This document shows positions 8,311-17,460 of a DNA stretch of 21,710 nucleotides, piece after piece. The stretch spans positions 1 to 21,710 of IMG/VR virus record IMGVR_UViG_3300037585_002817, one strand, 5' to 3'. Each line of letters starts with the position of its first letter. Positions within the stretch are counted from its first letter, which is position 1. The position numbers and the translations under genes were made by a program. Below the pieces are notes generated by a model. It had not been told where the DNA came from. It did not search any database and saw only the letters and a program-made list of their open reading frames with translations. The DNA comes from a virus.

Positions 8311-9003
8311 GTGAGTAAGTGTATTGTTCCAATATCGGGCGGGATTGATTCAACAGTATTGTTGCATCACGCAGTTAAATCGGGTAAATTCGAAGATATC
8401 TACGCTATATCTTTTAATTACGGTCAGAGACATAGTAGAGAGTTAGTATATGCTCGTCTAAACGCAGAGAAATTAAATGCTCCGCATAGGATCATACCTT
8501 TAAATTACTTTGATCACATCAATACATCATCCTTAACTAATCCCGACATTGACGTAGCTAAGACGCGCGATGTCCTTGGTGACGCGCAGACAGTTAACTA
8601 TGTACCGTTCAGGAATCAAATGCTGTTAACGATATGTTGTGCCTTGGCTGAATCTGCAAATGCAGATACAGTTTTTCACGGAGCAGCCCAAGTAGATACA
8701 CAGGCAGGATATTGGGACGGGAGTATGGAGTTTCTAGAAGGAATTAATAGCTTGACTGCCTTGAATAGAAAGCATAGAATAACTATCGAAGCTCCTCTCA
8801 TCGAGATGTCAAAGCGTGAGATTATTAAGTGGGGATTAGATTTAGGTGTTAATTATGAACATACATGGACGTGTTATGAAGGTAAAGATAAAGCGTGCGG
8901 AGAGTGTACAGCATGCTCGTCAAGACTTCAAGGCTTTATCGATGTGGGCATCAGAGACCCTCTTGAATATATCGCAGAGATTCCCTGGGATACATTAGTA
9001 TGA
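8311..9003 (+). CDS. queC: QueC, 7-cyano-7-deazaguanine (preQ0) synthase
   Basis: ATP-dependent conversion of 7-carboxy-7-deazaguanine plus ammonia to preQ0. 230 residues, the usual QueC length. The PP-loop SGGIDST is at residues 9-15. The zinc-binding cysteines near the C-terminus are C188, C196, C199 and C202 (C-x7-C-x2-C-x2-C). Central FNYGQRHSRE and FRNQMLL segments are characteristic of QueC. The protein appears full length and active. In phages, preQ0 made this way is a precursor for 7-deazaguanine bases in DNA as well as for queuosine. The other pathway genes (folE, queD, queE) and a DpdA transglycosylase are not in this window. The gene uses a GTG start directly downstream of a promoter, and its stop overlaps the next ATG (ATGA). 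Confidence 0.95.
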   Translation: MSKCIVPISGGIDSTVLLHHAVKSGKFEDIYAISFNYGQRHSRELVYARLNAEKLNAPHRIIPLNYFDHINTSSLTNPDIDVAKTRDVLGDAQTVNYVPFRNQMLLTICCALAESANADTVFHGAAQVDTQAGYWDGSMEFLEGINSLTALNRKHRITIEAPLIEMSKREIIKWGLDLGVNYEHTWTCYEGKDKACGECTACSSRLQGFIDVGIRDPLEYIAEIPWDTLV

Positions 9004-9236
9004 AAAGAAAAACGTACCCAGCCTATATGACCATAGCTACTAATTTGCAGCTATATGAAAAGGGCTGGTGGATGAAAGTAGCCCCGTTAGCCGGAATAGA
9101 CCCAGAACGTTGGGTATGTGCTATCTATAAGAAGGGAAAAGTCTCCTGGATTACAGAAGAATGTAAAGACTTTAACGACCCGGAATCAGCCTATGAATGG
9201 GCATGGAATAGAATATGCGAATTGAGCAAGAAATAA
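9000..9236 (+). CDS. Small protein of unknown function
   Basis: 78 residues, unusually rich in tryptophan (six), with lysines and a mixed alpha/beta pattern. I recognise no family. It overlaps the queC stop by 4 bases (ATGA) and the guaC start by 22 bases. It is therefore locked into the queC-guaC transcript and almost certainly translated. It may be a small accessory factor for its neighbours, but nothing in the sequence proves this. Confidence 0.8.
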
Positions 9237-10240
9237 AATTAGATTACAAGGATGTACTCTTAAGACCTAAACGATCTACGTTAGGTTCAAGAAAGGAAGT
9301 AGATCTTGAGCGTAGATTCGTGTTTCCTAATTGTAAACAGACATGGCATGGTGTTCCTATCGCAGCAGCCAATATGGATCATGTTGGCACTGTTAAAATG
9401 GCTAAGACATTAACTGAGTTCGGGATGCTAACATGTCTTCATAAGTATATCACCGTAGAGGATACAGATACAACATTAGCTGCTGTGCCATCTGCACATT
9501 GTGCGGTGTCAATCAGATTAAAGGAAAATGATAGAGCGTTGATGGATGCTATGTTTGATAGACACCCGCTTATTACATTTATTTGCATTGATGTTGCGAA
9601 TGGCTATTCAGAAAGGTTTAGTAAATACGTAAAGAATATCAGGAAAGAGTATCCTGATAAGGTTATTATAGCCGGTAATGTTGTGACTGGTGAGATGACA
9701 GAGGAATTAATTTTAAATGGAGCTGATATTGTTAAAGTGGGGATTGGTCCTGGGTCTGTTTGCACTACTCGTATACAAACTGGTGTGGGTTATCCTCAAC
9801 TCAGCGCAGTCATTGAATGCGCAGACGCTGCTCATGGGGTTGGTGGGTTTATTATGGCTGATGGGGGGTGTACTTGCCCTGGCGATGTGGCCAAGGCCTT
9901 TGGTGGGGGTGCTGATTTTGTTATGCTGGGCGGTATGCTGGCTGGTCATGACGAATGCTCCGGACAAGTAGTAAACGGTCAAAAGCAATTCTATGGAATG
10001 AGTTCATCTGAGGCTATGGATAAGTACTCTGGTGGAGTGGCAAAATATAGAAGCTCAGAAGGCAAGTGTGTCAAGGTTCCGTACAAAGGACCTGTAGCAG
10101 ATACAGCCAGTAGCATTTTAGGTGGGCTGCGTAGCGCCTGCACTTATATTGGTGCTAGGACAATTAAACAAATGCCTAAATGTGCAACATTTGTAAGAGC
10201 AAATCAACAATCAAACGAAGTATTTGGAAAGAACTTATGA
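9215..10240 (+). CDS. guaC: GMP reductase (GuaC)
   Basis: NADPH-dependent deamination of GMP to IMP; member of the IMPDH/GMPR TIM-barrel family. 341 residues with no CBS domains, matching bacterial GuaC rather than IMP dehydrogenase. The N-terminus ([14 protein letters not shown]) lines up with enterobacterial GuaC from its first residue, supporting the ATG at 9215. A GGAA lies about 6 bases upstream. Nucleotide-binding and catalytic segments are intact: [30 protein letters not shown] with catalytic C183, [20 protein letters not shown] and a GMSS loop. Similarity to cellular GuaC is very high in the middle, and the codon use there (many GGG) differs from the flanks. It lies between queC and gene 41 in one operon. 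A GMP reductase is an unusual phage gene. Confidence 0.95.
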
Positions 10241-11569: not shown

Positions 11570-12279
11570 AAATCTTAATTAGTAGCTGCACAAAGCACGA
11601 TGCCACGGAGTTTAAGGAGACTAAGCTGTATACTTCTATACTTAAAAGCCTAAATGACACGTGTATAATAAGCGATAATGTAATGACCTTTTTGTCTGGG
11701 AACATTAACGCTGTTGTTAAATTAAAAAATGATAAAAATATCGGGATTCATTATAACAAGTGTATAGCCTTAGGTAAGGCTGAAGGTTTTGATTGCGTTA
11801 TCTTTATCCATGATGATGTCAGCCTGGAGGATAGTCTCCTATCAGGCAAGCTTACAGAGGCATTTAAAAAATACGATGTTGTAGGCTTGGCTGGTGCAAA
11901 GGACGTTACACTTCGTAAGCCAGCACTGTGGCACCTTTTATCCAAGGAGCAAGACAGGTCGGGAATCGTAGCACACGCTGATGGTAATTATATCTCCTCA
12001 ACATACTTCGGACCAGTACCTCAACGCTGCATTTTACTTGACGGTTTATTTCTTGCAGTTAAGTTAAAAAATCTTCCGTCAGAAGTTCTTTTTGATGAAA
12101 ATCTTCCAGCAATTGCGCATCATTATGATCTTGACTTTTGCCTTACAGCCAACAAACATAAGCTAAAATTGACCACGTGGCCTATTTGGGTAGTACATGA
12201 TAGCCCAGGCTTGGAAAACGTCGAGTCAGATTTTATTAAATCGGAAAATTACTTTTTAAATAAATGGCTGAAAAACTAG
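11566..12279 (+). CDS. GT2-like glycosyltransferase (StrF-type)
   Basis: 237 residues; the start overlaps the amidotransferase stop (ATGA). The pattern is that of small GT-A enzymes of the StrF-like group. It has an N-terminal strand, YNKCIALGKAEGFDCVIFIHDDV with the DxD-like metal site at D83-D84, a GLAGAKD segment, and a C-terminal HYDLDFCL ... VHDS signature. These match what I recall of that family. It is likely cytoplasmic and soluble. The acceptor is unknown: modified DNA base, virion protein or surface sugar. Adjacency to the amidotransferase in a DNA-metabolism operon makes a role in nucleic-acid modification plausible, but that is inference. The last 16 bases overlap gene 41. Confidence 0.8.
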   Translation: MKILISSCTKHDATEFKETKLYTSILKSLNDTCIISDNVMTFLSGNINAVVKLKNDKNIGIHYNKCIALGKAEGFDCVIFIHDDVSLEDSLLSGKLTEAFKKYDVVGLAGAKDVTLRKPALWHLLSKEQDRSGIVAHADGNYISSTYFGPVPQRCILLDGLFLAVKLKNLPSEVLFDENLPAIAHHYDLDFCLTANKHKLKLTTWPIWVVHDSPGLENVESDFIKSENYFLNKWLKN

Positions 12280-13589
12280 ATTTAGATTTTTTTGAGAATG
12301 TCATAGCGTATCATCTTCTCACAGATGAGCTATATCTAGCATCTGTGTGTGAAGATTTATCACCTGTATATTTTAAGGATAAAAATGTTCAAACCATCGT
12401 CGGTATTATTACAGAGTTCTATAAAACACGTAATACTGTACCTTCTTCAACTGAGATCAAGTCATATCTCAATACCCCTGAACTAAAGAAGGCATTTGTC
12501 TCGTTAGTGCAAAGCTTTAACAATTTAGACAAGAACTTTAATAAGGATGAGTTGTATGATAATACAGAAACCTTTCTAAAGCAAAAAGCTGTATATCAGA
12601 CCATGATGGATGTAGTGGATAAATGTACATCTGGCGAAGTGGACACGTCTGATATTCTCAGCAAGTTCGAAAAGGCATGCGGAATTACACTAAGCGCTGA
12701 TCTCGGTTTAGAATTCTTTTCTGAAGTAGATACACACATTAAGGATCTCACGACAGAAGAAAAATATATACCGTCTAATTGGGAATGGTTAGATAGAAAG
12801 CTAGGTGGTGGCTTCCTGGAGACCGGAAGAGCGTTGTATTTATTCGCCGGTCAGACCAACGTCGGTAAATCTATATTCTTAGGCAATATCGCAGTTAACG
12901 TCGCCGAACAAGGTAAGACTGTTGTACTTATTTCCCTTGAAATGTCAGAGCTAATGTATGCTAAGCGTATTTCCTCCAAAGTAACAGGTATTAATATTGG
13001 TGATCTACAGACAAGCTCAGAATTAGTTAAAACAAGAGTTGAAGATGTTGCTGATAAGAAGAAGCCAAAACTTATTATCAAAGAATTTCCACCTAACGCG
13101 ATAACAGCTAATCAAATAAGCGCATATCTTAAGAAATTAATTAATAAGGGTATACATCCTGATATGGTTGTTATTGATTATATCAATTTGTTAAATTCAC
13201 CCATTGGTAACAACTCGTATGAAAGAGTTAAACATACATCAGAGCAAGTTAGAGCTCTATCCTATACGTTTGAATGTCCATTTGTAACGGCAACTCAAAT
13301 TAATAGAGGTGGTATCAATGAGGATAATCCTGGCGTTGAAAATATTAGTGAAAGTATCGGCCTTGCAGCAACTGCGGATTGTATTATGAGTATTTGGCAA
13401 GAAGAAGGAGATACAGAGCTCGGTGTTATCAGACTGGGGATGATGAAGAATAGATACGGTCAAAATTTTGGAACGTGTGCTATGGCTATTGACTATTCAA
13501 CTCTAAGCTTGACACAGACTCAAATGATTAATAGCACAGAAGAGATGGATGGAGTGGATCGGACATTAACTAGCCTGGAAGATTTGTAG
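12264..13589 (+). CDS. 41: Replicative DNA helicase gp41 (DnaB-like)
   Basis: Hexameric 5'-3' helicase of the phage primosome, 441 residues (T4 gp41 is 475). The N-terminal about 150 residues are helical, as in the DnaB/gp41 collar domain. The RecA-like core carries Walker A GQTNVGKS at 196-203, ISLEMSE (the H1a-like glutamate), Walker B VVIDYINLL with D305, and TQINRGG, the motif H3 Gln and adjacent Arg region. The order and spacing are complete. It is loaded by gp59 and works with primase gp61, both encoded in this window. It is the last gene of the operon that begins at queC. Confidence 0.95.
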   Translation: MAEKLDLDFFENVIAYHLLTDELYLASVCEDLSPVYFKDKNVQTIVGIITEFYKTRNTVPSSTEIKSYLNTPELKKAFVSLVQSFNNLDKNFNKDELYDNTETFLKQKAVYQTMMDVVDKCTSGEVDTSDILSKFEKACGITLSADLGLEFFSEVDTHIKDLTTEEKYIPSNWEWLDRKLGGGFLETGRALYLFAGQTNVGKSIFLGNIAVNVAEQGKTVVLISLEMSELMYAKRISSKVTGINIGDLQTSSELVKTRVEDVADKKKPKLIIKEFPPNAITANQISAYLKKLINKGIHPDMVVIDYINLLNSPIGNNSYERVKHTSEQVRALSYTFECPFVTATQINRGGINEDNPGVENISESIGLAATADCIMSIWQEEGDTELGVIRLGMMKNRYGQNFGTCAMAIDYSTLSLTQTQMINSTEEMDGVDRTLTSLEDL

Positions 13590-13610: not shown

Positions 13611-14486
13611 GTGGGTCAGAGCAAACAATTTATATTTACAAATTTAGATATTGATGGATCGTTATCATATCTACTTTTAAAGTGGGTAACCGGTCAGGAT
13701 ATACCTTATAAATGTTCATCTATCTTTAGCATCGAGAAAGATTTCTCTGATTGGTACCGTGCAAATGGAGAAAAATATGAACGGGTATACATTCTAGGAA
13801 TAGACGTGAGTGAATGTATGAATGTAATCAACAAGGATAACGTTGTTGTCTTTGCACATAAGCTGCCCGTAAAGGAGCTCTCTAACGCTAAGATAGTTAC
13901 CAATGAGAATGCTAGCACATCGATGCTTATATACAAAAAGTTTGCAGAGAAGGTTAATCTCACCGAATCACAAAAGTTATTAATAGTAATAGCAGATGAT
14001 ATAAAGAAACATACATTTGATCTCCCTTATAGCCGCGAGCTCGACATGCTTTATAGAGCCTCAACCGGCGATAGGTTAATGAAATTTTGTATAGATTTTA
14101 AAACCGGCTTTAAGGGATTTACCGACAAACAAAAACGCTTAATTAATTTTTACAAGAAGAGTGTTGATAACGTTGTAGGCGACTTAAGGGTGTTCAAGGG
14201 AACAATTCCGTTCAAAGGAGAAACATATAATGTTATCTCAACGTTTGCAGAAAAGTATATTAATGAAATATCAGACAAGCTCCTACAAGACTATAATTGT
14301 AATGTGTGCTTCGTAGTTAACATAGAGAAGAAAAGAGTTAGTTTCAGGAGATCGCCCGACTGTGACATAGATCTGTCTATTCTTGCGGATAAGATTGCGT
14401 ATGGTGGTGGCTTTCCGTATGCTGCAAGTGGAACAATGGGTGAAAACTTTATAACTATAACTAAGCTCTTTAAGCAAATTAAATGA
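13611..14486 (+). CDS. DHH-family phosphoesterase-like protein with degenerate active site
   Basis: 291 residues. The fold signature of DHH/DHHA1 proteins (RecJ, NrnA, PPX families) is visible in order: N-L-D-I-D-G-S-L-S at 11-19, a VYILGIDVSE strand, VVVFAHK at 79-84, TNENASTSMLIY, IADD, and a C-terminal GGGFPYAASG at 265-274. Metal ligands are altered: the first His is Asn, and the DHH triad reads A82-H83-K84. The protein is probably inactive or repurposed, perhaps binding short RNA, DNA or a nucleotide. It starts with GTG immediately after an in-frame TAA, the only possible start. The 21-base gap after gene 41 has no Shine-Dalgarno sequence and only a weak promoter candidate (CTGGAA, 16 bases, TTAAAT). 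Confidence 0.75.
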   Translation: MGQSKQFIFTNLDIDGSLSYLLLKWVTGQDIPYKCSSIFSIEKDFSDWYRANGEKYERVYILGIDVSECMNVINKDNVVVFAHKLPVKELSNAKIVTNENASTSMLIYKKFAEKVNLTESQKLLIVIADDIKKHTFDLPYSRELDMLYRASTGDRLMKFCIDFKTGFKGFTDKQKRLINFYKKSVDNVVGDLRVFKGTIPFKGETYNVISTFAEKYINEISDKLLQDYNCNVCFVVNIEKKRVSFRRSPDCDIDLSILADKIAYGGGFPYAASGTMGENFITITKLFKQIK

Positions 14487-14806
14487 TTAATATAAACGTA
14501 AAGACTGATCCGGCCTCTGGTATTGTATATAGAGAGCATAAAAATAATTTCTTGAAATTCTGTACCTTGCTGTGTATTATACATAATAAGAAATTAAATC
14601 TTGCCAATATATTTCTACTGATATTACAGGAAAAGCAAATAAAGAAGCTGTACATGAGTATGTGTGATTTTGATACGGAGTTCGAGGCTCTTAAATCTTT
14701 TTTCGAATACGATAGCACTTTGCATAAAAGCAAGTATATTAAGAAGTATCTTAATTCACCATCATTTAAGAGAAAAAATGACCGAGCTAGAAAAAAACGT
14801 TTATAA
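14483..14806 (+). CDS. Unknown basic protein at the gene 33 position
   Basis: 107 residues; ATG overlaps the DHH-like gene stop (ATGA), and the 3' end overlaps gene 59 by 29 bases. It is rich in Lys, Leu, Ile and Phe with a very basic C-terminus (KRKNDRARKKRL), and is probably all helical. In T4 the order is 33-59-32, so by position this would be the late-transcription coactivator gp33. However, I see no gp33-like sequence and no C-terminal clamp-binding peptide, so I leave it unnamed. The overlaps on both sides make it a real gene. A nucleic-acid-binding role would fit its charge. Confidence 0.75.
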   Translation: MININVKTDPASGIVYREHKNNFLKFCTLLCIIHNKKLNLANIFLLILQEKQIKKLYMSMCDFDTEFEALKSFFEYDSTLHKSKYIKKYLNSPSFKRKNDRARKKRL

Positions 14807-15428
14807 CACTTATCTAAGAATAAGCCGAACAAGATCTGGAAAGCACTTTAAGTATAGAAAAAAATTCGACAATTTCGAAGAAAATAAAGCCTACGTTCCT
14901 GTAAAGAAAATAGCTAAGCTTCTTCTAAACCATCCACATATTAATATCAACGACTTCTTCAATGCGCCATATGAGGTGTATCCCGAGAAGAAGTATGAAT
15001 ATGGGCTCGATATTAATTTCTATACAACCTTAAAAGCAACAGGTTGTTATAGCATCTTTAAAAAGATGTGTGATGACAGAAATCCGGACGAACAGATTGA
15101 GAGTATTAAAAAGTCACTATATTTCATTTATATATTCTGTAAAGATAATAAAATTGGCGTCGAGGAGTATCTAAACCATAAAACAAATGCTGAGAGAACT
15201 TTTATGCTACATTTGCGCGAGAGAAAGGTTAATATATATTCTCTATTCGGATTGAGCAATTTCGATAATATTATGTCAAGAGCGGATCCAAATGCCGCCA
15301 AATTTACTTTAGGTCATTTGTATTTAAGCCTTGACTTATACCGATCACGATACTATAATTCTAAAGTAACGATTAACGTCGTTAGTAAAGCAATAGAAAA
15401 ACTAACTAAAATACTAAAAAATAAATGA
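14778..15428 (+). CDS. 59: Probable helicase loader gp59
   Basis: The ATG at 14778 gives 216 residues, against 217 in T4 gp59. An in-frame reading from 14664 lies inside the preceding gene and is not preferred. Position directly before gene 32, with an ATGA overlap, is the T4 arrangement. The sequence is helical and basic throughout. It has a central SLYFIYIFCKDNKIGVEEYL stretch that resembles the equivalent helix of T4 gp59 (IYYFSKK...F), and a KYEYGLDINFYTTL region comparable to the conserved Y/F-rich segment. gp59 binds forked DNA and gp32 and loads gp41. The identity rests on length, synteny and partial similarity, so it is less certain than its neighbours. Confidence 0.75.
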   Translation: MTELEKNVYNTYLRISRTRSGKHFKYRKKFDNFEENKAYVPVKKIAKLLLNHPHININDFFNAPYEVYPEKKYEYGLDINFYTTLKATGCYSIFKKMCDDRNPDEQIESIKKSLYFIYIFCKDNKIGVEEYLNHKTNAERTFMLHLRERKVNIYSLFGLSNFDNIMSRADPNAAKFTLGHLYLSLDLYRSRYYNSKVTINVVSKAIEKLTKILKNK

Positions 15429-16279
15429 GCGGATATACTAATTCAATGTTCGATAGCATCAAGACAGCCCTGACTGATGCTAATACAAAGAACAAAGGCG
15501 GGCTATATAGAGAGATCCTAAAACTTACACCAGGCAATACGTACATTGTACGACTTTTGCCTAATGTTGGTGATCCTAAGAAAACATTCTTCCATTACTA
15601 TACACATGCATGGGAGAGCTTTGCTACTGGTAATTATACTGCTGAGGTTAGCCCTCAGACATGGGGCGAAAGAGACCCGATCGGTGAGTATCGTTTGAGC
15701 ATCTCAAAGCATGGTACAGAAGAGGAAAAGGATAAAGCAAAGGCTATTATGCGTCGTGAGAATTGGCTCGTAAATGCTTACGTTGTTAACGATCCTGTCA
15801 ATCAAGACAATACCGGTAAGGTTAAGCTTATCCGATTCGGTAGACAGCTACATAAAATCATTATGGAGGCAATCGAGGGAGAAGATGCAGATGATTTCGG
15901 AGCACGTATCTTTGATCTTTCCTCTAACGGATGTAACTTTAAGATTAAGTGCGAGAAGCAAGGTGACTTCCCGACTTATGTATCATCAAGGTTTGCTCCT
16001 CCGACTGAGATTGCAGGTCTAGACGACGAAAACGTTCAAGAGGTGTATGATAACATTCATGATCTTGAGAGTGTGTTCCCTGTTAAATCGTATGATGATC
16101 TTAATAAGGTGTTAAGTGAACACTTTCATTGTAAATCACCTGACAGTGAACCTGTACCGGAACCACAAGCACAAGCCCCTGTCGCTGAGCCTGTATCCGA
16201 TGCATCGAGCAACACCAGTACGGATGAAGATCCGTTGAACGATGATAAAGTGAAGGAACTTCTTGACGGATTAGGTTGA
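15425..16279 (+). CDS. 32: Single-stranded DNA-binding protein gp32
   Basis: 284 residues (T4 gp32 is 301). The N-terminal basic region (A-domain) is followed by an OB-fold core with GNTYIVRLLPN, FFHYYTHAW and WLVNAYVVNDP, which are conserved in T4-like SSBs. The C-terminal part is a Pro/Ala/Ser-rich linker with an acidic tail (DEDPLNDDKVKELL), the partner-binding domain. The T4 zinc module (His64, Cys77, Cys87, Cys90) is absent: the equivalent segment reads SPQTWGERDPI with no cysteine. The only cysteines lie elsewhere (two in the NGCNFKIKC segment, one near the tail). The core is presumably stabilised without zinc. The gene sits between gp59 and the clamp-side genes. Confidence 0.93.
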   Translation: MSGYTNSMFDSIKTALTDANTKNKGGLYREILKLTPGNTYIVRLLPNVGDPKKTFFHYYTHAWESFATGNYTAEVSPQTWGERDPIGEYRLSISKHGTEEEKDKAKAIMRRENWLVNAYVVNDPVNQDNTGKVKLIRFGRQLHKIIMEAIEGEDADDFGARIFDLSSNGCNFKIKCEKQGDFPTYVSSRFAPPTEIAGLDDENVQEVYDNIHDLESVFPVKSYDDLNKVLSEHFHCKSPDSEPVPEPQAQAPVAEPVSDASSNTSTDEDPLNDDKVKELLDGLG

Positions 16280-16280
16280 T

Positions 16281-16754
16281 ATGGATCCCGAAGCTCATAA
16301 AAACGTTGCTGCTATAGCACAATTAGCTGCTTTTACTAAAGCTAAGGCGTCAGAGCTAGACGAAAACATCGTTTCGTCATCCGGCAATCTGAAATCCTCA
16401 GCGAACTGGAGCCCTGAAGACATCGTTAAGCGTGAGCTTCAAAGTATGGCTGAGAGCCAACCTGGTGGTATTGCACCACCAGCCGCTCCAGCCGCGCCGG
16501 TACCAGTTCTGCCTGCAGCTCTGCCTGAGACACAATACGAGCCTGCATATGCACCACCACCACCATCATCCCCACAACAAATGAACAACCAATTAGACCT
16601 ATTTACAGAAATCAATAATCGTCTCAAACAAATCGAGGAAGACGTCTCTAAATTAGAGAATACTTACGATAAGGTTATGAAGGCTATGTTGAAAAACAAA
16701 GCAAAGACGATTACAATCAAATTTGATGAAGCTCAAAATAGCAAACAAGACTGA
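16281..16754 (+). CDS. Pro/Ala-rich linker protein with a clamp-binding-type motif
   Basis: 157 residues, one base after the gene 32 stop. Residues 1-55 are helical and polar. Residues 60-100 are a disordered Pro/Ala-rich linker with a run of prolines. Q104-L-D-L-F108 follows, then a coiled coil to about 145. QL(S/D)LF is the textbook bacterial sliding-clamp-binding pentapeptide, and gp43 here ends in a related QTDLF. The gene directly downstream, overlapping by 29 bases, encodes the sliding-clamp-like protein. Seen: motif, linker, coiled coil. Inferred: a flexible tether that binds the phage clamp or the host DnaN clamp. No named family is recognised. Confidence 0.85.
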   Translation: MDPEAHKNVAAIAQLAAFTKAKASELDENIVSSSGNLKSSANWSPEDIVKRELQSMAESQPGGIAPPAAPAAPVPVLPAALPETQYEPAYAPPPPSSPQQMNNQLDLFTEINNRLKQIEEDVSKLENTYDKVMKAMLKNKAKTITIKFDEAQNSKQD

Positions 16755-17460
16755 GTTCGTAAATCGGTTCTTAAATCAGCTTAGTAAAATTAATACAGCT
16801 TGTGTGCTCAAGGTCACAGGTACTGGTATAACAAGCCTACTTACGGCAGCAGATAATACCTTAATTTTATTCTCACGATATAACGCTAAGTTTGATATTG
16901 ATAGAGATATTAATCTCAATATTCCGGATCTGAATAGATTGTCAAAAATGATTCAATGCATCCCTGGCGAAGACATAACGCTAGATGTGTATGACTCAGT
17001 TATTAAGTATGAATCAAAAGATGTAAGGTTTCAGTACTATCTTCTCGATGATGGAATTATCGAAACACCTCCTCTAAGTGAGGAAAAAATTAAAGCTATT
17101 GAATATAACACTAACTTTGAACTAGCATATGAATCCCTAGTCGGGCTAATTAAGAGCAGTTCATTTGTTGTGGATATACATAAGGTATATTTTTATACTA
17201 AGGATGGTTCGATATACGCTGAAGTAAACGATAAGAAGAGACAAAATATTGACAATATATGTCTTAAGCTAGCCGACAAATATAACGGAGATCAAATTAC
17301 AACACCCTTGCCGATGAGCCTAGAAACAATCAGACTACTCGGCTCATCAAGAACAGACAAGCTCGCCGTACTCATTAATAATAAGTTGAATGTTATGATG
17401 TTTGGCATCAATAATAACGATATCAAATTAACTTATATCGTATCGGGATTAGTAAAATAA
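16726..17460 (+). CDS. 45: Sliding clamp-like DNA polymerase processivity factor (gp45)
   Basis: 244 residues from the ATG at 16726 (a TTG one codon earlier is less likely). T4 gp45 has 228. The start MKLKIANKTEF...INTACVLK aligns by eye with T4 gp45 MKLSKDTTAL...INSGIMLK. Then comes the clamp pattern of alternating strands with helices: NIPDLNRLSKMIQ, a strand pair around DVYDSVIKYE, and the inter-domain segment before FELAYESLVGLIKSS. Each half looks like one clamp domain, consistent with a two-domain subunit forming a trimer. The clamp tethers gp43 and activates late transcription. The loader genes 44/62 are not in view. The location next to gene 32 differs from T4, where 45 precedes 44-62-regA-43. 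The call is by fold pattern and N-terminal resemblance. Confidence 0.72.
   Translation: MKLKIANKTEFVNRFLNQLSKINTACVLKVTGTGITSLLTAADNTLILFSRYNAKFDIDRDINLNIPDLNRLSKMIQCIPGEDITLDVYDSVIKYESKDVRFQYYLLDDGIIETPPLSEEKIKAIEYNTNFELAYESLVGLIKSSSFVVDIHKVYFYTKDGSIYAEVNDKKRQNIDNICLKLADKYNGDQITTPLPMSLETIRLLGSSRTDKLAVLINNKLNVMMFGINNNDIKLTYIVSGLVK

Follow-up and report, generated by a model that had tools for sequence, protein, structure and literature searches.

Cdc45 is thought to have descended from a nuclease that accompanied the replicative helicase and was inactivated later, and to our knowledge inactivation of this type has been seen only in deep archaeal and eukaryotic time. The metal site of drRecJ is built from Asp79, Asp81, and Asp83 of motif I, Asp135 of motif II, His159 of motif III, and Asp223 of motif IV, with residues 83, 135, 159, and 223 binding metal A and residues 79, 81, and 135 binding metal B; alanine substitutions at these ligands leave the enzyme almost completely inactive, and Cdc45 lacks the RecJ ligands Asp79, Asp135, and His159 (PMC4846377). 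Archaeal RecJs that lie in conserved replication neighbourhoods have been inactivated independently and are read as structural replication subunits (PMC3307487), and Haloferax RecJ4 is non-catalytic and apparently serves as the scaffold of a nuclease complex (PMC10470531).

Here we describe what appears to be the same kind of change, occurring several times within one large uncultured T4-like phage group in which active, degenerate, and gene-less relatives coexist at one gene position. A search of the open literature found no paper on a phage DHH protein beside a helicase.

A degenerate DHH-DHHA1 gene in a T4-like replication cluster

The stretch of DNA analysed here (the window) is an entire 21.7-kb IMG/VR record and carries a T4-like replication cluster comprising gp46-like, gp43 polymerase, UvsX, gp41, gp32, clamp, and 5'-3' exonuclease genes. 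The gene of interest occupies positions 13611–14486 on the + strand, exactly the open reading frame (ORF) first described, and encodes a 291-residue protein from a GTG start. Its frame is intact, and its stop codon and the start codon of the following ORF share an ATGA, both in the window and in the related contigs L002, L003, and L004. Used as a single sequence, the protein gave only chance matches in a phmmer search of the PDB, and its comparison with Pfam returned no match. PHROG 4771, annotated as DHH phosphoesterase, matches it at E = 1e-7, and Pfam DHH and/or DHHA1 domains were found in eight of ten homologues scanned, the window protein and L004 being those without. These matches, together with the predicted structure and its neighbours described below, bear out the DHH/DHHA1 layout that the earlier note had proposed.

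Directly upstream, on the + strand, lies the gene for a DnaB/gp41-type replicative helicase (12264..13589; PHROG 19, E = 4e-76). The DHH gene had been placed between the helicase and helicase-loader genes; the helicase side of this description holds, and the next gene downstream is a 107-aa ORF (14483..14806, +) whose start overlaps the DHH stop, with a loader-like ORF of about 216 aa coming second (about 14778..15428, +). On the same strand follow a gp32-type single-strand DNA-binding protein (15425..16279; Pfam gp32, E = 1.5e-20) and a sliding-clamp-like protein in the position of gp45 (16723..17460; PHROG 223, E = 6.7e-9). The gene order in T4 is 33-59-32, and we take the 107-aa ORF to correspond in position to gp33. 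Sequence comparison gave no gp33 support and no recognisable family for this ORF, which almost every contig of the group retains and which is a candidate diverged late-transcription coactivator. The loader-like ORF stands in the T4 gp59 position; one of its 24 members matches PHROG 269 at E = 0.001, a weak match, and a PDB profile search with this ORF gave nothing convincing. Position and the PHROG match together hint that it may encode the helicase loader.

Other features of the window deserve mention. A proline-rich 157-aa ORF without a family fills the interval between gp32 and the clamp (16281–16754), and its position is conserved across the group. Most genes in the window lack a Shine-Dalgarno-like motif and have A/T-rich leaders (AAATAA-ATG), possibly a sign of a host with Shine-Dalgarno-independent initiation. 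Two ORFs at 8311–9003 and 9215–10240, judged by eye to be QueC-like and IMPDH/GMP-reductase-like, respectively, may point to a link with 7-deazaguanine or purine metabolism.

Relatives and their gene slot

A tblastn search of INPHARED with the window protein and a peptide-pattern scan of IMG/VR produced no matches. Relatives were reached via the helicase, which led to 13 related contigs, 11 of them with a DHH gene right behind the helicase, and scans with the resulting alignments gave a family set of 92 distinct members. Intact relatives show 26–39% identity and occupy the same slot, and the window protein itself combines the two features of this phage DHH family, PHROG 4771-like homology and a position between the helicase and the 107-aa ORF. 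Four distinct degenerate sequences are present on five contigs: those of the window, L004, L003 (identical in L005), and L002. Each of these contigs, which are fragments, carries one DHH copy and no second, intact one. Cultured phages include no close relative, their best helicase matches being about 30% identical, and a pattern scan of bacterial and archaeal genome contigs, a weak test, revealed no homologue.

The recurrent gene order is amidotransferase, glycosyltransferase-like, helicase, DHH, 107-aa ORF, loader-like, gp32, small ORF, and clamp. Within the family contigs, the DHH gene follows the helicase either directly or, in a few cases, after one or two inserted ORFs. It is present in 43 of 80 helicase-anchored contigs and absent from the other 37, where the helicase is followed directly by the 107-aa ORF. 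The gene is therefore tied to its slot yet optional, which argues for an accessory role in this group and against a core subunit of the helicase. Furthermore, since the entire family including its active members occupies the slot, the location is older than the loss of catalysis.

The clean absence of the gene between helicase and 107-aa ORF in L013 and the 37 helicase-anchored contigs offers natural gene-less controls. Extra ORFs separate helicase and DHH in L024 (1841–2803), L025 (189–1202), L035, L071, and L086; by eye, those of L024 and L025 resemble IMPDH/GMP-reductase and start similarly to window ORF 9215–10240. The DHH gene of L079 (3992–4867) is broken into two ORFs of 197 and 68 aa, possibly through a frameshift or a sequencing error.

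Active-site residues of the window clade

Based on sequence alignments, the equivalents of the six drRecJ metal ligands in the window protein are N11, D13, D15, G63, H83, and D130. Motif I (residues 11–16, N-L-D-I-D-G; 13641..13658, +) carries N11 in place of a conserved Asp, and motif II carries G63 (13797..13799, +) in place of the bridging Asp equivalent to Asp135 of drRecJ. In motif III, the DHH triad reads A82-H83-K84 (13854..13862, +), and the motif IV region reads D130-I131-K132-K133 (13998..14009, +), with D130 retained and Y131 and D132 substituted. The earlier note had read both the triad and the Asn of motif I correctly; it took the latter for a His-to-Asn change, whereas the family carries Asp at this position (80 Asp and 6 His among 92 members). 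D63G and D132K are losses beyond those first described.

Whether the triad loss is conserved could be answered from the alignment. Among 77 intact homologues, Asp occupies position 11 in 95%, positions 63 and 82 in 100%, and position 132 in 99%, and His occupies position 84 in 100%; D11N, D63G, D82A/K, and D132K are found in all four distinct sequences of the window clade, so the loss is clade-wide. The triad is AHK in the window and L004, KHQ in L003, and KHH in L002, which means that the Asp158 equivalent is lost throughout the clade and His84, the equivalent of His160, in three of the four sequences.

The clade retains Asp13, Asp15, His83, Asp130, Arg246, and the GGG motif, the first four being invariant both among the four degenerate sequences and across the family alignment. 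Four of the six metal-ligand positions are thus kept in the window protein. The two that are gone correspond to Asp79, which is specific to metal B, and to the bridging Asp135; both are also among the three RecJ ligands missing from Cdc45. In the DHHA1 domain, residues 242–248 (R-V-S-F-R-R-S; 14334..14354, +) preserve S244 and R246, which belong to the phosphate-binding motif VI of RecJ. The glycine motif, GGGFPYAASG (residues 265–274; 14403..14432, +), had been described as a substrate-binding element that was kept. This is accurate for GGG and AA; relative to the family motif GGGHxxAAGG, His268 is replaced by Phe or Tyr (His persists in L002 only) and Gly273 by Ser in all four sequences.

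Residues N11, G63, I131, K132, K133, D145, and S273 are invariant and specific to the window clade, which suggests a new, stable cleft. The proteins of the clade are also more basic, with a net charge of +6 to +9 versus a median of +3 for intact members. Loss was not significantly enriched at active-site columns compared with other conserved columns (5 of 9 versus 5 of 18 lost, p = 0.22), and Y131, N145, D74, and G273 are lost as well, so the case rests on the identity of the lost residues and not on enrichment.

Compared with an active DHH phosphoesterase, which has six ligands and a DHH triad, the window protein deviates at N11, G63, A82, and K84. The intact motifs I–IV of a RecJ are likewise missing, the Asp79 and Asp135 equivalents being gone, as is the active DHH site of NrnA/Pde2, whose catalytic residues are gone and whose structural Z-scores reach only 12–13. 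The combination of a RecJ-like core and an inactivated metal site that characterises Cdc45/RecJ-Cdc45 is present, with positions 11 and 63 lost; His83 is retained, unlike in Cdc45.

Repeated loss of the active site

The window, L004, L003, and L002 sequences form one clade with support of 100/100. Outside it, L098 lacks the conserved residues at positions 11 and 63, like the window protein; L101 has lost 11, 13, 83, and 84; and L087 has lost 63. L091 and L144 have the triad NHG and a DHHA1 motif of the form GGGT-x-x-I-GGG, with the remaining metal ligands retained. In a further clade (L158, L159, L161, L163, and L169), the ligands lost are precisely the three specific to metal A (D15H, H83S/A/T, and D130T/S), and the metal-B ligands are retained; the sister of this clade has an intact DHH or D130E.

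Counted by metal ligands on a DHH tree computed with the active-site columns excluded, three losses are needed, with L091/L144 in addition. The helicase tree requires seven losses, and well-supported branches make six of these unavoidable. The data neither establish nor reject a single origin of the window clade, L098, and L101 (AU p = 0.134), and for this reason we count at least three to four losses and not the seven of the helicase tree. The safe statement from these trees is that the active site was lost at least 3–4 times independently.

Predicted structure and selection

AF2 models were obtained with a pLDDT of 93.6 for the window protein and 95.3 for its intact relative L008. The window model shows a Rossmann-like DHH domain followed by DHHA1, and its top VIA match is RecJ-Cdc45 from Methanothermobacter (7bhi; Z 18.8 over 264 residues); the top match of the intact L008 model is also an archaeal RecJ-Cdc45 (Z 19.2). 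The next matches, archaeal RecJ2, SaRecJ, PAP phosphatase, and PggH, lie no more than 1–2 Z units lower, with PAP phosphatase and PggH at about 17, Cdc45 chains from yeast and human/vertebrate replisomes at 14–16, and NrnA at 12–13. For these models the ranking is a near tie, and function is not settled by ranking alone. A profile search reached 6mtz and 8a8k at E ≤ 0.001 and Pyrococcus GAN at E = 0.027 only.

By the NG86 method, dN/dS is 0.060 for window/L004, where dS (2.6) is close to saturation, and 0.073 for L003/L002, where dS is 1.1; both values fall inside the 0.02–0.16 found for intact pairs. The clade of L158 and its relatives gives 0.06–0.12. The nonsynonymous rate of the DHH gene exceeds that of the helicase 2–6-fold in the window clade and 1.2–3.9-fold in intact pairs. 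As judged from these rates, the gene is constrained, though somewhat freer than its active relatives.

Proposed function

The window protein is a DHH-DHHA1 protein that is conserved and under selection but has a degraded catalytic site; it occupies the helicase slot, where other members of the group keep the active site. Our best reading, to which we give about even weight, is that it is a pseudoenzyme that serves as a non-catalytic ssDNA- or oligonucleotide-binding accessory of the phage fork. It would work like Cdc45 and the inactive archaeal RecJs, without belonging to that family. The other DHH-DHHA1 family members in the slot are predicted two-metal phosphodiesterases or exonucleases; in the window clade, hydrolysis would be abolished, and the cleft may bind ssDNA or an oligonucleotide end without cutting it, using at most one metal, or lysines instead. 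The protein could then act as a helicase or fork accessory or scaffold, comparable to Cdc45, the inactive haloarchaeal/crenarchaeal RecJ, and Haloferax RecJ4, with gp41, gp32, or the loader as putative partners. We infer that it may bind the helicase.

The earlier note had drawn the same parallel between an inactive RecJ-like scaffold and Cdc45. The conserved loss, purifying selection, fixed cluster, and RecJ-Cdc45 top match support it; the optional gene, the length of only 291 aa, and a slot that predates the loss do not. Two further observations count against a fork accessory: gene adjacency fits simple co-expression equally well, and the distant DHH genes of the cultured phages SP-15, LysYB1, and MTATph1 do not adjoin the helicase. 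The fuller evolutionary scenario, in which a DHH exonuclease linked to a phage helicase of the DnaB type repeatedly lost one or other metal site and became a non-catalytic, ssDNA-holding subunit of the replisome, is offered tentatively and is perhaps doubtful.

Counter-defence against nucleotide signals is the main rival, alongside residual one-metal activity. Active members would degrade the cyclic or linear oligonucleotide messengers of CBASS or type III CRISPR systems, and degenerate ones would sequester them uncut, much like a sponge. A role in countering these messengers has been suggested for jumbo-phage DHH phosphodiesterases (PMC7824862), the patchy presence and absence at one slot is typical of accessory genes, and both the faster evolution of DHH relative to the helicase (dN ratio 2–6) and the retained phosphate-binding residues of DHHA1 fit this role. 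We consider it unlikely, however, as a fixed place inside the replication cluster and translational overlap with the next gene are unusual for anti-defence genes, and the top structural matches are RecJ/Cdc45 and not NrnA/Pde2 (Z 12–13), although Z does not settle the substrate.

Because four of six metal ligands are retained, the protein may also keep some activity. A single metal at site A, bound by Asp15, His83, and Asp130, could hydrolyse a different or easier phosphate bond, in line with the invariance of these residues and of Asp13 noted above and with the retained S244 and R246 in the cleft. This would have to be reconciled with the absence of both the bridging Asp and the motif I Asp, given that single Ala mutants nearly abolish drRecJ activity (PMC4846377), and with the replacement of Asp132 by Lys and of His84 by Lys or Gln (His in L002); the AF2 model, being metal-free, cannot decide the matter, and we regard residual catalysis as rather improbable. 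A functionless gene decaying under relaxed selection is very improbable: the long stem branch (0.86) and evolution somewhat faster than in intact relatives speak for it, but the frame is open on each of the five contigs with their four distinct sequences, a dN/dS of 0.06–0.07 argues against decay, and the clade-specific invariant residues and high-confidence fold do so as well.

Should the pseudoenzyme prove to bind the helicase or DNA at the fork, comparison of the natural variants would allow a direct test of the benefit that a helicase draws from an inactive nuclease. It would also be a novelty for a DnaB-type phage helicase to have a single-strand binding partner.

Comparison with known systems

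The direct homologues of the window protein are the intact phage DHH phosphoesterases (PHROG 4771 and 1850) of the same slot, which, unlike the window clade, keep D-x-D-x-D, D, DHH, and D. NrnA, Pde2, PggH, and PAP phosphatase resemble it in size (about 300–340 aa) and through the profile matches to 6mtz and 8a8k, and PggH and the M. thermolithotrophicus PAP phosphatase score Z of about 17 against the window model; in contrast to the window protein, they are active enzymes with an intact DHH, and NrnA scores only 12–13. Bacterial RecJ can be aligned with it over motifs I–IV and DHHA1 motifs VI–VII and shares its fold (Z 15–17), whereas the window protein has lost metal ligands and has neither the OB and C-terminal domains nor the motif I Tyr of drRecJ.

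Haloferax RecJ4 is likewise RecJ-like with missing active-site residues (PMC10470531), but belongs to another lineage, has additional domains, and partners with the active RecJ3 and aRNase J. Cdc45 and the archaeal RecJ-Cdc45/GAN proteins differ in size, with chains of 430–570 residues (502–568 for the Cdc45 chains matched) compared with 291 for the window protein. Cdc45 has also lost the His159 equivalent that the window protein keeps, and it is essential and works with MCM, whereas the window gene is optional, adjoins a DnaB/gp41-type helicase, and has no GINS. What these proteins share with the window protein is the DHH-DHHA1 core fold (Z 14–19) and, for Cdc45, the loss of the Asp79 and Asp135 equivalents and a genetic link to the replicative helicase.
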